A stretch of DNA of 64,000 nucleotides, taken from Afifellaceae bacterium (GTDB taxonomy: Bacteria > Pseudomonadota > Alphaproteobacteria > Rhizobiales > Afifellaceae). Numbering within the stretch: the stretch's first letter is position 1; the number at the start of each line of letters is the position of its first letter. A program made the translations under genes and the position numbers. The notes below the pieces were generated by a model. It searched no databases, was not told the origin of the DNA, and worked only from the letters and a program-made list of their open reading frames with translations. Where the stretch lies: assembly GCA_028281235.1 (NCBI GenBank), contig JANQKG010000027.1, forward strand, positions 1-64,000, in the 5' to 3' direction. Below are positions 54,434-61,566 of this stretch, piece after piece.

Positions 54434-54766
54434 TCATTCCGTTCTTAACAGCAAGACCACGCCGGCCGGATCTGAGGTCCAATGTCCATTGACGCCATCG
54501 AGAGGCTCAAGCTCGTCGCGCTTTGGGCTGCCGAGCTTAACCAAGGATTGGTCGGGATTATCGGTGATCAACTCAAGCCACACATCCACCTGGCTCTGCC
54601 TTTCGACACGGTCGATCCAAAGGGTCATGTCGCCGAACGCAAAGCAGACGCTGCTGGCAAGTTCCTTTGTGACCTCAAGTCCGACGCGGTCCCGGTAAAA
54701 CGCGACGGTTTCGTCCCATCGATGAAGCGGGACCTTGATTGCGATGTTCTTCCCCGGCCGGATCAT
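54434..54766 (-). CDS. Small VOC (glyoxalase/bleomycin-resistance-fold) protein, last gene of YcaO operon
   Basis: 110 residues from ATG 54766, which overlaps the tfuA stop by four bases. IAIKVPLHRWDETVAFYRDRVGLEV is the VOC module start and DMTLWIDRVERQSQVDVWLELITD the next strands; it is one short module and lacks a clear full set of metal ligands. Single VOC modules often sequester antibiotics (bleomycin-resistance type). Coupling to tfuA and ycaO suggests either self-protection against the peptide product or a tailoring/binding role; both are inference. Confidence 0.7.
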   Translation of the reverse strand: MIRPGKNIAIKVPLHRWDETVAFYRDRVGLEVTKELASSVCFAFGDMTLWIDRVERQSQVDVWLELITDNPDQSLVKLGSPKRDELEPLDGVNGHWTSDPAGVVLLLRTE

Positions 54767-55536
54767 GAGCAGACCTCGAGCGGCACGGCATTCGCGTCTT
54801 CGTCCCGTGCGGCAAGCTTCTCTGCCCGCCGTAGCGTCAGGATCCACGTCGCGGTGGGTTCCACGCGCCAGTCCGGCGGCGGGCGCCGCGCCGGCTCCAG
54901 ATAGTCCATGTAAGCGAGCAGCGCCAAGGCGTCCTGGCGCTTCACGTCAAGCCGGCAGCTCTTGATCAGCGCCTTCAGCCGTTCGCCGCGTGCGCCCTGG
55001 TCGAGCCCGGCATGCGCCAGGATCGCCGGATAGGTGCGCTCCTTGAAGAACAGCGCGCGCGCGCTTCTATCCAGGCGCACCGCCTCGTCTGCGCTGATCG
55101 CGCCAAGTTTGGCGAAGTGTTGGATCGTCGCCTCGACATTGACCAGCGCCTCCGTCAGCGGTGCGTGATCGAGCTCCTCCGGCGCGTGGAGCTGCGCCAC
55201 GGCCGCATCGTCGACAAGCTCGCCGGAATGATAGCGCTCAAACACCGCGCCGATCCCGATCATGCCGAAGGCGGCGCATTCCGCTGCGCGGAGCGCCCCC
55301 ATGCTTGCTGCGCCATAAAACGCAACGCCCTGTTCGATCGCGAAGAGGATTTCCTTGTGCCAGACCGCGGCGACATCCTCGTAGCGGCCGTCGATCAGCC
55401 CGATCGCCGTGGCGCCTTCCACGACCGCGCGTGCAATATCGCCCTGGCCGGCCGGTGCGCAGCAACGAAGCGCATCGGAATGCTTGGCCGTCCAGTTCGT
55501 GCCATGGAGGCTCGGGCCTGCGAAGAGAACCTTCAT
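54763..55536 (-). CDS. TfuA-domain protein
   Basis: 257 residues. MKVLFAGPSLHG at the start and the conserved core GLIDGRYEDVAAVWHKEIL, GVAFYGAASMGALRAAEC and GAVFERYHSGELVDDAAVA (about residues 45-115) identify TfuA. TfuA was named from trifolitoxin loci and works with YcaO proteins; in thioamide systems the pair converts a backbone amide to a thioamide, TfuA probably helping to deliver sulphide. Overlaps the ycaO stop by four bases and the VOC gene start by four, so all three are translationally coupled. Confidence 0.9.
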   Translation of the reverse strand: MKVLFAGPSLHGTNWTAKHSDALRCCAPAGQGDIARAVVEGATAIGLIDGRYEDVAAVWHKEILFAIEQGVAFYGAASMGALRAAECAAFGMIGIGAVFERYHSGELVDDAAVAQLHAPEELDHAPLTEALVNVEATIQHFAKLGAISADEAVRLDRSARALFFKERTYPAILAHAGLDQGARGERLKALIKSCRLDVKRQDALALLAYMDYLEPARRPPPDWRVEPTATWILTLRRAEKLAARDEDANAVPLEVCS

Positions 55537-56795
55537 TGCGCCTCCATAATGGCTTTGAGCGCCCGCCTGCCATAACGCTGGCGACGATCGCCGGGCGGGT
55601 TTTCGAGCTCCGGAATGAGGGCACGTGCGGCGGCAAAGCCTCGCTCTTCGCCAGCATCCAAAGGCACAATGACGGCCGATCCGATCCCGGCATCGACGAG
55701 GTGCTGCAGGATGAATCGCAGATTATCGGCCGGGTCCGGCACGTCGGCGAGGTCGGTGGAGGGCCGCGCATGCGGCGTTGCGCTGAGATAGGTGGTCAGG
55801 TCGGCCTTGAGCGCCGTTCCATAAAGGTCCGGATCGAAATCGTCGCGCGCGCCCGTGATGCTGGTGACGCGGCTTTGTGCTGCTTCGGTGATGGCACGAA
55901 TGGCGGCGCGCGCTGGCGAGGGGTGGGCGCCCATGCCGCTCGAAAGGTCAAAGTGCTTCCACAGATCCTCGCGGCCTTTGGGAATGGGCGCGATGGTGGA
56001 GAAATAGACCGGAACACCGATGTCGCTTGTGATGTCGAAGAGCCGTAGCTGGAAGCCTGCCGCATCGATCCGCTCGGCAAGATCGGTGACCGCGTCGTCC
56101 TCAAGCGTCGCCGGGTCGACGCAGCGCTCGTGCACCTCTTGATCGGAGCGGAAACTCCAAAGCGCGCTGGCGTCGCGTTCGATGCGCTCCAGCAACCCAT
56201 GCACGATCGCCTCCAGAAGCACGTTGCCCGAGGCCAGCCCGTCGCTCGTCTGCCAGTATCGGCTCGGCGCCTCGCCCTTGCCGGCCGGGTCGAGTGTGAT
56301 CATGTCGGCGGGCACCCAAGCGGTCGTGTGCTGGAGAAGGTCGAAACCCTCCACCCAGGCCACGTTCTCCGTCTCCGAAAGCGGCTGCTCGCCGCGCTTC
56401 AGCATGTTGTTGAACGGCATGACGCGCGCGCCGTCGGTGGCCAGCGCCTGCATGGAGCCGGTGTGCACGGGAAGCGCGCAGGCCTCGGCGGTCGCCAGCT
56501 CCGCCGCCTCCATCAAAGCGGAGGCTTGCGCGGCCGGGCCGTCGAGGCCCTTGCCCTGGCTGACGGCAAGCGTCTTGGAGTTGGGCCGGACCGCCATCCA
56601 AACAGGGATGCCGATCCGGTCCAGTCCCGTCACATCGGCCAGCCGGGTGATGCCGAACCGGCCGAACATCGACCGCACGCGGTCGACGGTTTCGTTTGCG
56701 CGGTGCAGCCGGTCGGAATGATCCTCGGCAGCACCGCGCGTCCTTAACAGCGCGATCTCCGCGTCAAGGCAGTCGGGAAGTCGCGCTGCATCCAT
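55533..56795 (-). CDS. YcaO-family ATP-dependent peptide-modifying enzyme
   Basis: 420 residues. ATP/Mg-binding signatures of YcaO: ASALMEAAELATAEA (Glu about 96, 99), GNVLLEAIVHGLLERIERDA (Glu about 195-206) and AITEAAQSRVTSITGARDD (Glu 304, Gln 307, Arg 309). YcaO proteins phosphorylate backbone amides to form azolines, thioamides or amidines. The C-terminus (about 400-420) lacks the Pro-x-Pro-x-Pro ending usual in azoline-forming cyclodehydratases, and the partner is TfuA, which points to thioamidation (inference). It starts 9 bp after the repeat precursor gene. Confidence 0.92.
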   Translation of the reverse strand: MDAARLPDCLDAEIALLRTRGAAEDHSDRLHRANETVDRVRSMFGRFGITRLADVTGLDRIGIPVWMAVRPNSKTLAVSQGKGLDGPAAQASALMEAAELATAEACALPVHTGSMQALATDGARVMPFNNMLKRGEQPLSETENVAWVEGFDLLQHTTAWVPADMITLDPAGKGEAPSRYWQTSDGLASGNVLLEAIVHGLLERIERDASALWSFRSDQEVHERCVDPATLEDDAVTDLAERIDAAGFQLRLFDITSDIGVPVYFSTIAPIPKGREDLWKHFDLSSGMGAHPSPARAAIRAITEAAQSRVTSITGARDDFDPDLYGTALKADLTTYLSATPHARPSTDLADVPDPADNLRFILQHLVDAGIGSAVIVPLDAGEERGFAAARALIPELENPPGDRRQRYGRRALKAIMEAQ

Positions 56796-56804
56796 CGTCG
56801 CGGC

Positions 56805-57311
56805 TCAGCGGCTTGGGTAGTAGTAATGCGAAGCCGCGTCGGAACGAGACGTGGCCGCATGAGTCACCTCGGCTGCGTCCGCCTTCGGCCCCTTGCTCGG
56901 ATAGTAATAGTGCGACGCTGCGTCAGAGCGGGACGAAGCTGCACGGGCGAAGTCGATGCCCTCAGCCTGCTTGCTCGGGTAGTAGTAATGAGACGCCGCT
57001 TCGGAGCGTTCGGTGGCCGCGTGGGCGATTTCAACGCCTTGTGCCTGCACATCTCTACTGGGGTAATAGTAGTGAGACGCCGCCTCGGAGCGTTCGGTCG
57101 CCGTGTGGGTGACTTCAGCGCTCTCGGCCTGCACATCCCTACTCGGGTAGTAGTAATGTGACGCTGCATTCGAGCGACCGGATTTGGTGGCCACAACGTC
57201 GCCGCCAGTCTCAGTGTCGAACGCGTCGGTACGTTCGACCGTGCCGGCTTCAAGGTCTGCGACCCACATCGAGCCGTCTTCGGCCAAACGGAAAAGAACG
57301 ATATTCGTCAT
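56805..57311 (-). CDS. Five-repeat putative multi-core RiPP precursor
   Basis: 168 residues from ATG 57311, chosen because AAGGAG lies seven bases before. Residues 1-46 form a leader-like segment (MTNIVLFRLAEDGSMWVADL...). Then AASHYYYPS occurs five times, at residues 49-57, 77-85, 105-113, 131-139 and 159-167, with 28, 28, 26 and 28-residue spacing. Every unit is framed R-S-(N/E/D)-AASHYYYPS-(R/K), and the last ends the protein. No Cys is present. Spacers are acidic (for example DVQAQGVEIAHAATE). Encoded 9 bp ahead of ycaO. It is the natural substrate candidate for YcaO-TfuA; a non-RiPP repeat protein is the alternative. Confidence 0.85.
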   Translation of the reverse strand: MTNIVLFRLAEDGSMWVADLEAGTVERTDAFDTETGGDVVATKSGRSNAASHYYYPSRDVQAESAEVTHTATERSEAASHYYYPSRDVQAQGVEIAHAATERSEAASHYYYPSKQAEGIDFARAASSRSDAASHYYYPSKGPKADAAEVTHAATSRSDAASHYYYPSR

Positions 57312-57579
57312 AGCTTTCTCCTTCTCAGTTTCAAGTTGAACTCGGCGCAATACGCCGCCGTCACGCGCAGGCTCCATCGAGCCTGGTGTGCATTTGAGTA
57401 CTGCTTTCAAGAGAGGCGGCGCCGGCTTGCCGGCTGAATCAGCGCCGCCTGAAATCTATGCTTTGCTGCCCCTGTCTTTCGGGCTTTCGGAGCACATGTC
57501 AGTGCCCCGGCTACCGAGCGTCAGTGGGACAGGATTGTGTTTCCCATGGGCGCCTCGTCCTTCTTTGCTGCCTGCCGGC
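57312..57579 (-). promoter_or_regulatory. Leader/intergenic region between regulator and precursor, with stems
   Basis: 268 bp. Contains CAGGCTC/GAGCCTG (57368-57374 with 57379-57385) close to the precursor start, and AGGCGGCGC/GCGCCGCCT (57414-57422 with 57442-57450) with an inner GCCGGC pair; the latter may terminate regulator transcripts or attenuate. A short open frame here (57456-57707) overlaps the regulator gene and is not protein-like. Confidence 0.5.
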
Positions 57580-59577
57580 TTACTCAAAACCTGCTTCCCG
57601 TAGGCCCTGCTCATAATGCTCCGCGTAGCGACGGTCGCGTATGGGCACGATCGAAAGCCATGCGGAGATGGAGAAGTCCGGGTGTATTTCTTTGGTCTTC
57701 TGCACAAATAGCTGGGCCTGTTCGAACTCGCCCATCATCGCGTGCGATGCAGCCAGCAGACGGAATGCAGCGCTCTTGTCGCGCATATGCTCAACGCACC
57801 GGATTGCGTCACGGTAGCGCTGCAGGTGATAGTTCGTGCCTGCGGCGGCCCACCAATATTGATCCGGACACAATGGATTGAGTTCGATGGCCCGAGTGAT
57901 CTTCTCCAGCGCCGCCGGGAAGTCACAGGTGTGCGAATATGCATCAGCAAAGTCGTTGAGAATGTCTGCGTGCTGCGGGCAGCGCTCCTCTGCGAGCTTA
58001 AGCGCTTCGACACTCTCGTCGAACTGTCCGGCATAGAGATTGCAAACGCCCAGCTCGCGATAGCCACGTGCGTCTTCTGGGTCGATTTCACGCGAACGGA
58101 TGGCCAGCCGCTTCGCCTCGGTAAGCAGCTCACGGTCACCGCGCGCCATGAGGAGCCACTCTTGTTGATAGGTCCGCGCCAAGCCGCTTAACGCCGGAAC
58201 GAAATCGGTGCACTCGCCCACCGCTGCTTTGAAGTAGCGGCGCGCCCGGCGAACGCTAGGTAGGTCGAGTGCGTGTAGGTATTTCTGACCGGCCAGGTAG
58301 AGGTGGTAAGCGCTCGGGTGCTGTAAACGATCGTAATAAGCGAGCTCAGCCCGCTCGATCCAATCCTTGAGCGCTCCAACGATCTGGACGGACAGATCTC
58401 TGTACTGCCCGGCAACAGCATCCTTGTCGAGCCGGTAATCCTGCGTCCAAAGGATGTCGCGCGTGGTCGCGTTGTAGAGCTTGACGTAGAGCGTCGGCTC
58501 GCCGGCGCGAACTTTAAGCTGCGAATCGACGACGTAGGAGATATGCAGCTTACGCAATTGCGCACGCTTGCGGCTCTTGCTGAGTTGCGCCGCCGTGTAA
58601 GGGGCCACGATAGACATCGACTTCAGGCGGCAAAGCCCGATTGTCACATCCTCAATCAGGGCATCCGCCAATTGATGCGCAAAGTCCTGCCCACCAAGCG
58701 GCGGAGGCGGCAACACCGTGACCCGCGGTGTCTGCGCACGATCAAGAAGCGGCACGAATGAATCGTCCGGCTCAAGCCCAGACAGTGTATCGGCAGCCTC
58801 TTGCTGCGCATTTGGCTCCTCACTTGCAGGGGCGGCTGCCGCCTTCGGTGCCGCCTTCGGCAACAGGGTCCGATAAAGCTCGCGCGTCGCCTCGTCGGGC
58901 GGAACGTTCAGCTCTTCGCCAAGTCGCGCCTTCAGGCTCTCATACACGTCCCGCACACGCGCCGGCTCGCCGTCCTCCGCATGAAGGCGCATCAGTGTCC
59001 GATGGGCGATCTCGTTATAGGGGTCGACCTCGCGTAGGCGCCGCGCGGCAACCTTGATCTTCACGCGGTCGACCTTGCGGTCGAGCGGCTCCAGCCGACT
59101 GGCTACCGCCGCCACGAAGGCGTCCCGGAGAATGGTGCGCTGCTGCTGCAGCCAGGATTGGAAGTCCGAACCCTCCCAATCGATGCCCTCCAAAAGGTCT
59201 CCGCAATAAAGGTCGCAGAGCGTCTCCAGGTCAGCCAGCCCCCTGTCGGCGACGACCTTCTGGAACTGAACCAGATCGATGAAGGCGGAGCCGCTGACAA
59301 GCTCCACATGGTTTCGACCGTTGCGGATGAGCTCGAAACCGTCTTCCTCTTGGCGTGTCGTCACACGCGACAGGAATTTGCGCAGATTGGCCGCCGCCGC
59401 CTTGGGTTCGGAGCTTTCCCAGAGGAGCTGGCGCAGCGTCCCACGGCGTGCTGGGCCGGCGCGCTCCGTCAGGACAAGATAAGCGAGCAGGGCAAACATC
59501 TTGGCCGGCACGGCGATCGGTCGTTGCCGATCATCGAGCAACCGCGGCTGGCCAAAAAGCATAAGCCTGCATCTCAT
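57580..59577 (-). CDS. SARP/BTAD-type regulator with TolB-like and TPR domains
   Basis: 665 residues. N-terminal winged helix (MLFGQPRLLDDRQ, residues about 1-95) and bacterial transcriptional activation domain (about 100-245, with AHRTLMRLHAEDGEPARVRDVYESLKARL) as in SARP regulators of secondary metabolism. Then a TolB/FlgO-like segment (about 285-400: VTVLPPPPLGG, YVVDSQLKVRAGEPTLYVKLYNA) and tetratricopeptide repeats to the C-terminus. Upstream of the precursor gene on the same strand and divergent from the S8 protease gene, so it likely activates the whole locus (inference). No sensor-kinase receiver is seen. Confidence 0.85.
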   Translation of the reverse strand: MRCRLMLFGQPRLLDDRQRPIAVPAKMFALLAYLVLTERAGPARRGTLRQLLWESSEPKAAAANLRKFLSRVTTRQEEDGFELIRNGRNHVELVSGSAFIDLVQFQKVVADRGLADLETLCDLYCGDLLEGIDWEGSDFQSWLQQQRTILRDAFVAAVASRLEPLDRKVDRVKIKVAARRLREVDPYNEIAHRTLMRLHAEDGEPARVRDVYESLKARLGEELNVPPDEATRELYRTLLPKAAPKAAAAPASEEPNAQQEAADTLSGLEPDDSFVPLLDRAQTPRVTVLPPPPLGGQDFAHQLADALIEDVTIGLCRLKSMSIVAPYTAAQLSKSRKRAQLRKLHISYVVDSQLKVRAGEPTLYVKLYNATTRDILWTQDYRLDKDAVAGQYRDLSVQIVGALKDWIERAELAYYDRLQHPSAYHLYLAGQKYLHALDLPSVRRARRYFKAAVGECTDFVPALSGLARTYQQEWLLMARGDRELLTEAKRLAIRSREIDPEDARGYRELGVCNLYAGQFDESVEALKLAEERCPQHADILNDFADAYSHTCDFPAALEKITRAIELNPLCPDQYWWAAAGTNYHLQRYRDAIRCVEHMRDKSAAFRLLAASHAMMGEFEQAQLFVQKTKEIHPDFSISAWLSIVPIRDRRYAEHYEQGLREAGFE

Positions 59578-59710
59578 GAATACAGCCTTAGATTGTATCC
59601 CCTGTTTAGTCGGCAGAAAACCTTAGGTAGAATCTCCCGCTGATGCGGACAATTCCCGAAACGTTCCCGCCAACTTTGACGATAGTGATTGGTTAACGGC
59701 GTGTAAATTC

Positions 59711-61249
59711 ATGCGCCGGCGTACCGGAAACCGCTTGTCACGTTCGCGCCACGCTTTGTCGTCTGCCACGCTCTTGCCACGCGCTCTGTTGTTCAATCTT
59801 GAAAAATTTCAAACGGCGATAAATTCGATGGAGCGACATTACACCATCCTCACCGACAGGGGAGGCCGTTTCCCGGCGCGGCATCTCCTCGGGCGATCGG
59901 AGTTTGAACAGCCTCTCGAAATGGCCTCCAGGCTCATGGCAGACCCGCCGCAGCCGGCCATCCATCGCGAACGCTTGACGGCACCGGAGCTTCAAGAACT
60001 GGAGCAGGAGCCCGATTTCGTCGCCGCGGCCGAGATCATGAGGACCCGGCTCCTGGCCCCGGTGGCAGACGAGGTTGCGCAAGAGGTCGGCCCGACGGTC
60101 ACCAGACGGGCAACCAAGGGTCGGCATCGGCAGTCTTGGGGAATCGGCGCCGTTGAGGCCGACAAATCCAAGTTCACGGGCGCCGGGGTCACTGTGGCGC
60201 TGCTCGACACCGGGATCGACGCTTCGCATTTGGCATTTGACGGGGTCGAACTGGTGGAGCGGGACTTTACCGGCTTCGGAAACGGCGACCTCGACGGTCA
60301 CGGCACGCATTGCGCCGGCGTTCTGTTCGGGCGCAACGTGGAGGGGGTGCGCATCGGCGTGGCGCCTGGAATCCGCAGCGCTCTGATTGGAAAGATTGTC
60401 GGACCGGAGGGCGGTGACACCGACATGATGGTGCGTGGCGTCTGCTGGGCGCATGAAGCCGGCGCGCGTGTCATATCGATGTCGGCGGGTTTTGATTTCG
60501 ACGCCACGTTGAACGAAAGGCTCGCGCAGGGGTGGCCGAACGGCCTTGCGACCTCTGCGACGCTGGAGGCCTATCGCAGCAATCTGAAGCTGCTGGATCG
60601 CTTGCTGCAGATGTTGCGGCTGCAAGAGCCCTCAACCGGCGGCGCGATCATCGTTGCGGCGGCCGGCAATGACAGCAGCCGCGACTCCGCCGGCGAATTC
60701 GTCACCAGCGCCTGCCCGCCCGCCTCCTCCGACAAGGTCATCTCTGTCGGTTCAATTGATCCTGATTCGACCGGAACGGGCTACCGCGTGTCCAGCTTCT
60801 CAAACAGCAGCGTGGAGATCGTTGCGCCCGGACGCAACATCGTCTCAGCCGGCGTTGGAGGCGGGCTCAAGGCGATGAGCGGCACCAGTGTGGCCGCGCC
60901 GCATGTGGCCGGTGTTGCGGCGCTCTGGTGGCAGGCGGTCCGGCAGTCGGAGCTGCCCGCCAACGCGACTTTGGTGCGCGGCAAGCTGTTTGAGGGCGCG
61001 CGGAGCGTCGGTTTCGCCCCGGCCGTCCACCCGGCCGAACGCGGAGCCGGGCGGATCGTGGCGCCGCGGGACGGATTGGCAGTTTCCGCTCGCCCCGCGG
61101 CGGCGGCGGCTGAATGGCGTGACCAGCTCTGTCCGGAACACCTGGAAATCGGCGCGAAACTGGCTGCCGGCGCAATTGTGGAGCCGATTTCCGTCGGCGC
61201 CGAAGCCGCCAATACGGCGTTGTCACGTAGCCGGCGAAGCCTCAGCTAG
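59711..61249 (+). CDS. S8 (subtilisin-family) serine peptidase
   Basis: 512 residues from ATG 59711; ATG 59828 is an alternative that keeps the whole protease. Catalytic Asp166 (VALLDTGID), His197 (DGHGTHCAG), oxyanion Asn320 (AAAGND) and Ser393 (MSGTSVAAPHVAG). About 150 N-terminal residues form a propeptide-like region. There is no convincing signal peptide, so it may act inside the cell. Divergent from the BTAD regulator (133 bp), it is a good candidate to cut the multi-core precursor at the basic residues flanking each unit, as S8 proteases do in several RiPP systems. Not proven. Confidence 0.88.
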   Translation: MRRRTGNRLSRSRHALSSATLLPRALLFNLEKFQTAINSMERHYTILTDRGGRFPARHLLGRSEFEQPLEMASRLMADPPQPAIHRERLTAPELQELEQEPDFVAAAEIMRTRLLAPVADEVAQEVGPTVTRRATKGRHRQSWGIGAVEADKSKFTGAGVTVALLDTGIDASHLAFDGVELVERDFTGFGNGDLDGHGTHCAGVLFGRNVEGVRIGVAPGIRSALIGKIVGPEGGDTDMMVRGVCWAHEAGARVISMSAGFDFDATLNERLAQGWPNGLATSATLEAYRSNLKLLDRLLQMLRLQEPSTGGAIIVAAAGNDSSRDSAGEFVTSACPPASSDKVISVGSIDPDSTGTGYRVSSFSNSSVEIVAPGRNIVSAGVGGGLKAMSGTSVAAPHVAGVAALWWQAVRQSELPANATLVRGKLFEGARSVGFAPAVHPAERGAGRIVAPRDGLAVSARPAAAAAEWRDQLCPEHLEIGAKLAAGAIVEPISVGAEAANTALSRSRRSLS

Positions 61250-61290
61250 GGGGTGTGTCACGCTTCAGCCACGCTGGGGCAGATTGAATA

Positions 61291-61566
61291 ATGGCACTGG
61301 TCACCGAAAAACAAGGGATCCGGGCCATGAGTTTGAGTGAGACCAGCCATCTGGGCGACACAAAGCGTCTCGACGAGGTGAGGGCGAAGATCTTCTACTT
61401 GGCGAGCGACGTGGAGTCGGCCAGCGAGCCTGCCGCGATCATGCTTCGCGCGGTTGCGGAGTCGATTGTCGATGGGGCCGATCGCGCCGATCGGCTGAAC
61501 GGGAATGCCGCCCTTAACGGCGTCGTATCCTCCCTCCGCTACGCCGGTGCGAACGGTATGCGCTAG
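61291..61566 (+). CDS. Small unknown protein downstream of S8 peptidase
   Basis: 91 residues from ATG 61291, or 79 from ATG 61327 (MSLSETSHLGDTK). Predicted mostly helical (LDEVRAKIFYLASDVESASEPAAIMLRAVAESIVDGA), no motif recognised, no membrane segment. It starts 41 bp after the protease stop, so is probably co-transcribed and part of the locus. A regulator or adaptor cannot be told from sequence. Confidence 0.6.
   Translation: MALVTEKQGIRAMSLSETSHLGDTKRLDEVRAKIFYLASDVESASEPAAIMLRAVAESIVDGADRADRLNGNAALNGVVSSLRYAGANGMR

Follow-up and report, generated by a model that had tools for sequence, protein, structure and literature searches.

In described YcaO–TfuA systems, TfuA serves a thiocarboxylated carrier of the ThiS type and YcaO introduces the thioamide, as far as the accessible text of two reports goes (PMC13063428, PMC5589413). 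We analysed a locus of this kind in a stretch of 64,000 nt from an Afifellaceae bacterium (assembly GCA_028281235.1, contig JANQKG010000027.1, positions 1 to 64,000), called "the window" below. It contains an open reading frame (ORF) for a protein of 168 residues with five near-identical modules, directly upstream of ycaO and tfuA. We consider it rather probable that this ORF encodes the precursor of short peptides thioamidated by YcaO and TfuA, which are predicted to be sensed by an adjacent regulator with BTAD and TPR domains.

In the thiovarsolin cluster of Actinobacteria, the precursor has five repeats, and the thioamide is located between Pro and Arg (PMC6511847, part of the text). The window shares with that cluster a precursor with up to five repeats (VarA) beside a YcaO (VarY) and a TfuA protein (VarT). 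In contrast, its core is AASHYYYPS and not APR/GPR, and the partners differ, because the accessible text of PMC6511847 lists heme oxygenase-like, amidinotransferase and MFS proteins, no specific protease, and mentions no co-replaced sensor. The YcaO–TfuA pair that forms thioglycine in McrA (PMC5589413, in part) provides the nearest NCBIfam models for the two enzymes of the window and the best solved structure match of its YcaO (MJ1094). However, McrA is one folded enzyme, and the scores are below the curated cut-offs (TIGR03266, 184 vs 365 bits; NF033432, 169 vs 235.2 bits). More than 500 TfuA-related clusters were counted in Rhizobium alone in the accessible part of PMC8120280; rhizobial clusters that we examined have the same order as the window, i.e. 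BTAD-TPR gene, small ORF, ycaO, tfuA, and a homologous leader. The rhizobial clusters that we examined are mostly single-core and end with SGHFDG or SGGFMDG, unlike the array of the window, and the main text of the survey, as far as accessible, describes neither an AASHxxxP array nor this precursor family (PMC8120280). A characterised product of the rhizobial TfuA-related clusters was not found in the literature.

In signalling of the RRNPP type, peptides act on TPR receptors. The RRNPP and agr systems occur in Gram-positive bacteria; their peptides are secreted and reimported or sensed at the surface, they have other DNA-binding domains, and they function without a thioamide. The window resembles these systems in that a TPR regulator adjoins the peptide gene and a putative specificity block spans sensor and peptide. 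Unlike RRNPP regulators, the regulator of the window has BTAD as its Pfam domain, and no RRNPP-type DNA-binding domain.

The precursor and selection on its cores

The precursor ORF starts with an ATG and is located on the minus strand (56805-57311). A conserved leader of 30 codons (57222-57311) is followed by five AASHYYYPS cores, which begin at residues 49, 77, 105, 131 and 159 (57141-57167, 57057-57083, 56973-56999, 56895-56921 and 56811-56837, respectively, all minus strand). The units are 26-28 residues long, and the modules share the flank GVDxAxAAxxRSD/E. The precursor stop (56805) is separated from the ATG of ycaO (56795) by a gap of 9 bp. The genes for YcaO (55533-56795; PF02624, E 1.1e-62), TfuA (54763-55536; PF07812, E 5.3e-41) and a VOC-fold protein (54434-54766, read from an internal ATG at 54766) continue the minus-strand run with two 4-bp overlaps. 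The SARP-like BTAD regulator, the C-terminal half of which contains TPR repeats (both Pfam), is encoded upstream on the same strand (57580-59577). A first-pass annotation of the window had described the 168-residue protein with five units 9 bp before ycaO and the overlaps with tfuA and the VOC gene, and all of this is borne out.

The five cores have the same protein sequence but different DNA sequences, so that neither an assembly artefact nor chance accounts for them. The ten pairs of the five copies of 9 codons contain 49 silent and 0 replacement differences (proportions of differing silent and replacement sites, pS 0.64 and pN 0.00), while three of the four spacers, which are of equal length, have values of 0.62 and 0.27, respectively. 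The 49 silent and 0 replacement differences show that the core copies are old and that the core has been held constant as a peptide. Selection thus acts on the core as a peptide.

AlphaFold predicts three beta strands for the leader, with predicted local distance difference test (pLDDT) values of 83-88 per block, and values of only 41-70 for the remainder, in which each repeat unit has two weak strands. These strands would fit a folded beta-repeat protein, or a repeat protein that is modified by YcaO and TfuA yet kept intact, like McrA and uL16, and so would the nearness of the YcaO to the McrA-modifying TIGR03266 (below its cut-off) and to MJ1094. We regard this explanation as improbable, because confidence for the repeats is low, single-core relatives have no repeat, and unit lengths in relatives range from 14 to 29 residues with the core motif kept (plus one gap of 52 where a unit went unrecognised), unlike in regular repeat folds. 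No curated family in Pfam or NCBIfam matched the precursor convincingly: DUF3993 was matched by 2 of 24 relatives (best E 1.5e-5), and nine NCBIfam models each matched one member, all far below the cut-off where shown.

A precursor family with a variable triplet

A search with the precursor sequence in 397 genomes of the order yielded five matches, i.e. the genome of the window, its sister genome G008, and three genomes of one genus in another family. The carriers represent 2 of 11 genomes in the family of the window and 3 of 15 in the other family. The precursor abuts ycaO in four of the five genomes; in the fifth (G295) it is cut off by a contig end, with ycaO on a different contig. The first-pass annotation had proposed searching for repeats next to ycaO and tfuA and had named homologues that never neighbour these genes as counter-evidence; such homologues were not encountered. 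The search with the precursor sequence thus leads to ycaO neighbours and supports the proposal of a multi-core precursor of a ribosomally synthesised and post-translationally modified peptide (RiPP) beside YcaO and TfuA. The locus also has two features of the TfuA-associated YcaO RiPPs (predicted to be thioamidated), namely adjacent ycaO and tfuA genes and, next to these, a short ORF that has a leader and a variable core.

While the protein search with the precursor yielded five relatives, a profile search, in which the best 7996 candidates were scored, identified at least 33 proteins (29 of them new), ranging from single-core (P0033-P0035) to multi-core forms. A profile of leader plus module matched that of 11 rhizobial precursors from 10 records (hhalign probability 96.5, E 7e-10). 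The relatives include Rhizobium proteins with three cores, of the type FEPKEAAFSGHYYKTP. One rhizobial three-core protein was found in two plasmid records, beside ycaO-tfuA in both. The single-core proteins P0033 and P0034 have a C-terminal end, KGVDLAVATDTRSDAAAQHM, that is similar to one module. Judged from these sequences, the family consists of a leader of predicted beta strands and repeated modules, and it is related to the single-core ORFs beside rhizobial ycaO-tfuA. A description of the family was not found in the full-text literature, which was searched also for six family motifs (subscription papers and supplements were outside the search). The comparisons indicate a real multi-core branch of the TfuA–YcaO RiPPs that is undescribed as far as the full-text literature tells.

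The three residues after AASH differ between the proteins (YYY, HYF, YMF, LFY, FFF, YLY, ILY, IFY, VLF, ALY, and others), and the triplet is followed by P, G, S or R. At least two AASH-like modules are present in 15 of the 39 proteins examined (59 modules). Within a protein, 94 of 119 pairs have the same triplet, vs 7 of 1592 pairs between proteins, and none of 2000 shuffles was as extreme. The core of P0012 is AASLQYSP, and P0025 (named Pinisolibacter, partial) has units of 14 residues. The His of ASH is absent in P0012 and in several rhizobial modules, which bears on a copper-binding reading of ASH (amino-terminal Cu(II)- and Ni(II)-binding motif, ATCUN); a literature search yielded nothing relevant to it. 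The C-terminal residues of P0023 resemble what we take to be the signature of sequencing-adapter read-through, and this tail is not a module.

In the class, 21 of 385 genomes contain YcaO homologues at E<=1e-30, and 194 plasmid records have a YcaO match at E<=1e-20. In a tree of 40 YcaO proteins, those of the window, G008, G144 and G251 group together (98/92) next to a clade from rhizobia (98/95), and the two are joined at 94/88. An ORF with repeated five-residue words was recognised by reading upstream of ycaO in 5 of 24 non-window loci, and arrays thus occur in several branches of the YcaO tree. Multi-core ORFs upstream of other alphaproteobacterial ycaO-tfuA pairs (L035, L042, L043, L044 and L045) include RHAANFIG in five copies, AGRWA(V/I)(T/S)P in about 20 copies, GGKQRFA in two to three copies (two loci), and an IAAGQ-rich ORF.

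The precursor and the sensor half of the regulator diverge together

The first-pass annotation had counted the BTAD regulator as a part of the locus. This view has been strengthened, as a regulator homologue is present in all 12 plasmid loci that were picked first (10 of which have a leader-bearing small ORF; in Paracoccus the regulator homologue is on the opposite strand), and as the C-terminal half of the regulator diverges with the precursor.

Between the window and G008, the mean silent divergence is 0.24-0.32 in the genes for citrate synthase, PcaF, the VOC protein, TfuA, YcaO, the S8 protease and the nucleoside hydrolase and in a 79-residue ORF. In the regulator it is 0.30 for codons 1-200, 0.37 for codons 201-300, and 0.57-0.77 for the remainder, and the precursor leader has a value of 0.60. 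To locate a block of raised divergence, we scanned the silent codons along the direction of transcription (regulator, leader, ycaO, tfuA, voc; the cores were left out). The best block starts at codon 314 of the regulator and closes with the leader (57222-58638, minus strand; boundary approximate), with differences in 145 of 260 silent codons inside (0.56) and 227 of 974 outside (0.23). Its likelihood ratio of 48.0 was reached in none of 500 permutations (maximum 11.8), although their grid was coarser than that of the scan itself. The cores differ as well, with five of YYYP in the window and eight of HYFP in G008. The shared divergence of sensor half and leader, together with the core difference, is read as a joint replacement, i.e. 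the sensor half of the regulator and the precursor were likely replaced together as a unit. In the second genus, the one full pair has values of 0.51 for the regulator and 0.60 for the leader, higher than those of ycaO (0.38) and tfuA (0.43). In three pairs of that genus, regulator codons 526-600 encode highly divergent protein (identity 0.36-0.49, pN 0.30-0.43).

For the rhizobia, we compared 13 loci (78 pairs), and core identity correlated with that of the sensor half (0.73), YcaO (0.72) and the DNA-binding half (0.58). The partial correlations were 0.49, 0.44 and -0.47, values that were reached in 0, 1 and 2000 of 2000 label permutations, respectively. The set was derived from 19 loci. Four were dropped for a first run with 15 (L040 and L057 with more than 80 residues, L103 with a frame that runs on, L106 without a recognised precursor), and two more for the second run (L105 with a short regulator, L104 as a near-duplicate of L101). 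An example is the pair L038 and L039, with nearly the same core end (GSVSGGFMDG and DSVSGGFMDG). Beyond codon 300, the five stretches of their regulators have identities of 88-100%, as against 73-89% for the four stretches before it, and their YcaO proteins are 78% identical. The loci are related and not independent, and the covariation is therefore support and not proof for the view that similar cores go with similar sensor halves and YcaO proteins, and not with similar DNA-binding halves. The regulators of L055 and L056 are annotated in the deposit as "peptide antibiotic resistance protein", perhaps from trifolitoxin work.

BTAD and SARP proteins are ordinary pathway activators, and a thioamidated multi-core peptide might be exported as a toxin, an antibiotic or a metal binder, with a regulator that controls the cluster without sensing the product. 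The core difference between the sister genomes, as is often found in toxins, would agree with this, and thioamidated RiPPs are described as bioactive in the accessible text of PMC8120280. We judge such an export peptide to be unlikely, yet a more serious competitor than an intact protein. On its own it predicts neither the common divergence block of sensor half and leader nor the covariation of sensor and core in rhizobia, and the cassette of the window has no transporter, although transporter genes are present in the neighbourhoods of some relatives (L022, L054).

Proposed mechanism

The TfuA of the window has its best solved structure match in 6xp8. The stretches LLERIERD and TEAAQSR of the window's YcaO align with MJ1094 (the first reads MEAAEL vs MEAIER in MJ1094) and are candidates for the YcaO nucleotide-binding motifs. 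The window's genome has a single YcaO match, namely this ycaO, and a ThiS-family (ThiS/MoaD-type) protein is encoded elsewhere in it. By the known chemistry, TfuA would free sulfide from a thiocarboxylated carrier of the ThiS type. In each module, YcaO would activate one backbone carbonyl with ATP and replace its oxygen by sulfur, and it may be guided by the leader and by the flank that recurs in the modules. A first guess for the site is the Pro (Gly in relatives) that follows the variable triplet, at its carbonyl. Dehydrogenase or E1-like partners are usual for azol(in)es; they are not among the genes of the cassette, in which TfuA is adjacent. An azoline or amidine instead of a thioamide is thus highly improbable, even though Ser is present in the cores and azolines and amidines are further products of YcaO proteins (PMC8442711, accessible part).

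Proteolysis would release one product per module, which may act on the TPR half of the regulator and thereby adjust transcription. The shared divergence of the peptide gene and the sensor half points to peptide signalling, and suggests a testable role in self-recognition by a modified peptide. If precursor and sensor half were replaced together, as is likely, the peptide would serve as a private chemical signal, and lineages could re-code it. A wider proposal, which we hold only tentatively, is a thioamide-based peptide pheromone system of alphaproteobacteria with the TPR half of the BTAD regulator as the receptor, and with sender and receptor exchanged as one recombination cassette. The pheromone would be a linear peptide protected by sulfur, and tandem copies would raise its dose. 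Lineages could thus adopt a different code of three residues, in the manner of the agr specificity groups although the chemistry is another one. In any case, the shared leader and module pick out candidate precursors for the rhizobial TfuA-related clusters.

Several observations weigh against the proposal of thioamidated peptides that are sensed by the regulator. The divergence block is based on one genome pair and 30 leader codons, and in the second genus (three genomes) there is no step inside the regulator. Local rates vary, as pcaF codons 1-100 have a silent divergence of 0.41, and the value for ycaO climbs from 0.13-0.15 at its start to 0.52 at its end. In the rhizobial comparison, the correlation of the core with YcaO is about as strong as that with the sensor half, L038 and L101 are nearly alike, and leaders were uncontrolled. 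Moreover, the cut between the regulator halves was shifted from codon 240 to 310 after the block scan, and the first run gave weaker partial correlations (sensor half 0.31, 5 of 2000 permutations; YcaO 0.30, 40 of 2000; DNA-binding half -0.25, 1958 of 2000). Residues other than Pro or Gly also follow the triplet (Arg in P0008 and P0013, Ser in P0007), and in many of the rhizobial precursors with one core that Gly is the last residue, so that no amide exists beyond it. The genes of the window's cassette include neither a transporter nor a sulfur carrier.

For the clades in which no close BTAD homologue neighbours ycaO, genes were chosen by eye in L042, L043, L046 and L047. Cyclase and AAA domains were found in all three of the large neighbours scanned (TPR in one), and all four scanned genes near tfuA are of the CRP type, with cyclic-nucleotide and helix-turn-helix domains. 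A sensor with transcriptional output thus recurs beside ycaO-tfuA, and related clades may use the same logic with cyclase and CRP as the output. The cyclase-AAA proteins and CRP-type regulators take the place of the BTAD regulator in L043, L046 and L047 (a CRP gene also in L042). In addition, two R. rhizogenes plasmids (L052, 6772-12374, and L097) carry tandem ycaO cassettes, one single-core and one triple-core.

Neighbouring genes

The first-pass annotation had united precursor, YcaO, TfuA, regulator, VOC protein and S8 protease in one pathway. This is supported for the multi-core precursor with YcaO, TfuA and the BTAD regulator, is weak for the protease, and is not supported for the VOC gene. 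The S8 subtilase gene (59828-61249, plus strand; PF00082) likely starts at the Met at 59828, in agreement with the ORF of the sister genome, and not at 59711. Around the D/H/S motifs it aligns with an intracellular subtilisin, a signal peptide was not recognised by eye, and its score with the PatA/PatG cyanobactin protease model is 51.2 vs a cut-off of 421.05 bits. The S8 frame is real, and homologues (E<=1e-25) are present in 11 of 397 genomes. In the family of the window they occur in both genomes with the cluster and in none of the nine without it, while the nine other genomes with an S8 homologue have no ycaO or tfuA within 1.5 kb. A complete-frame homologue was not found in other cluster loci. 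The co-occurrence within one genus weakly suggests a link to the pathway, and S8 might release the products in the genus of the window; a general role as a pathway gene is not supported in the relatives. On plasmid pTH2a of Rhizobium sp. TH2 (L040, 12529-15155), an annotated S8 peptidase gene starts 3.6 kb after tfuA, and its frame leaves the examined stretch.

The VOC frame has no Pfam match at E<=0.001; read from the internal ATG, it gives an AlphaFold model with a mean pLDDT of 90 that matches VOC/glyoxalase folds. Homologues are present in 21 of 297 genomes, 19 of 295 outside the genus of the window, and none of the eight loci examined from these 19 genomes has ycaO or tfuA within 1.5 kb. 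The VOC gene is therefore probably not pathway-specific.

No RNA family reached its gathering score at the locus. For an island check in the family of the window, the flanking genes were located, and relatives that have both carry them on separate contigs. Among 297 genomes of the order, the 79-residue ORF (61327-61566, plus strand) was found in two, which belong to the genus of the window, and homology to a small protein after rhizobial tfuA is not supported (E 0.41). That small, helical-looking protein is conserved after tfuA in 11 rhizobial loci (L038-L041, L052-L057 and L059).

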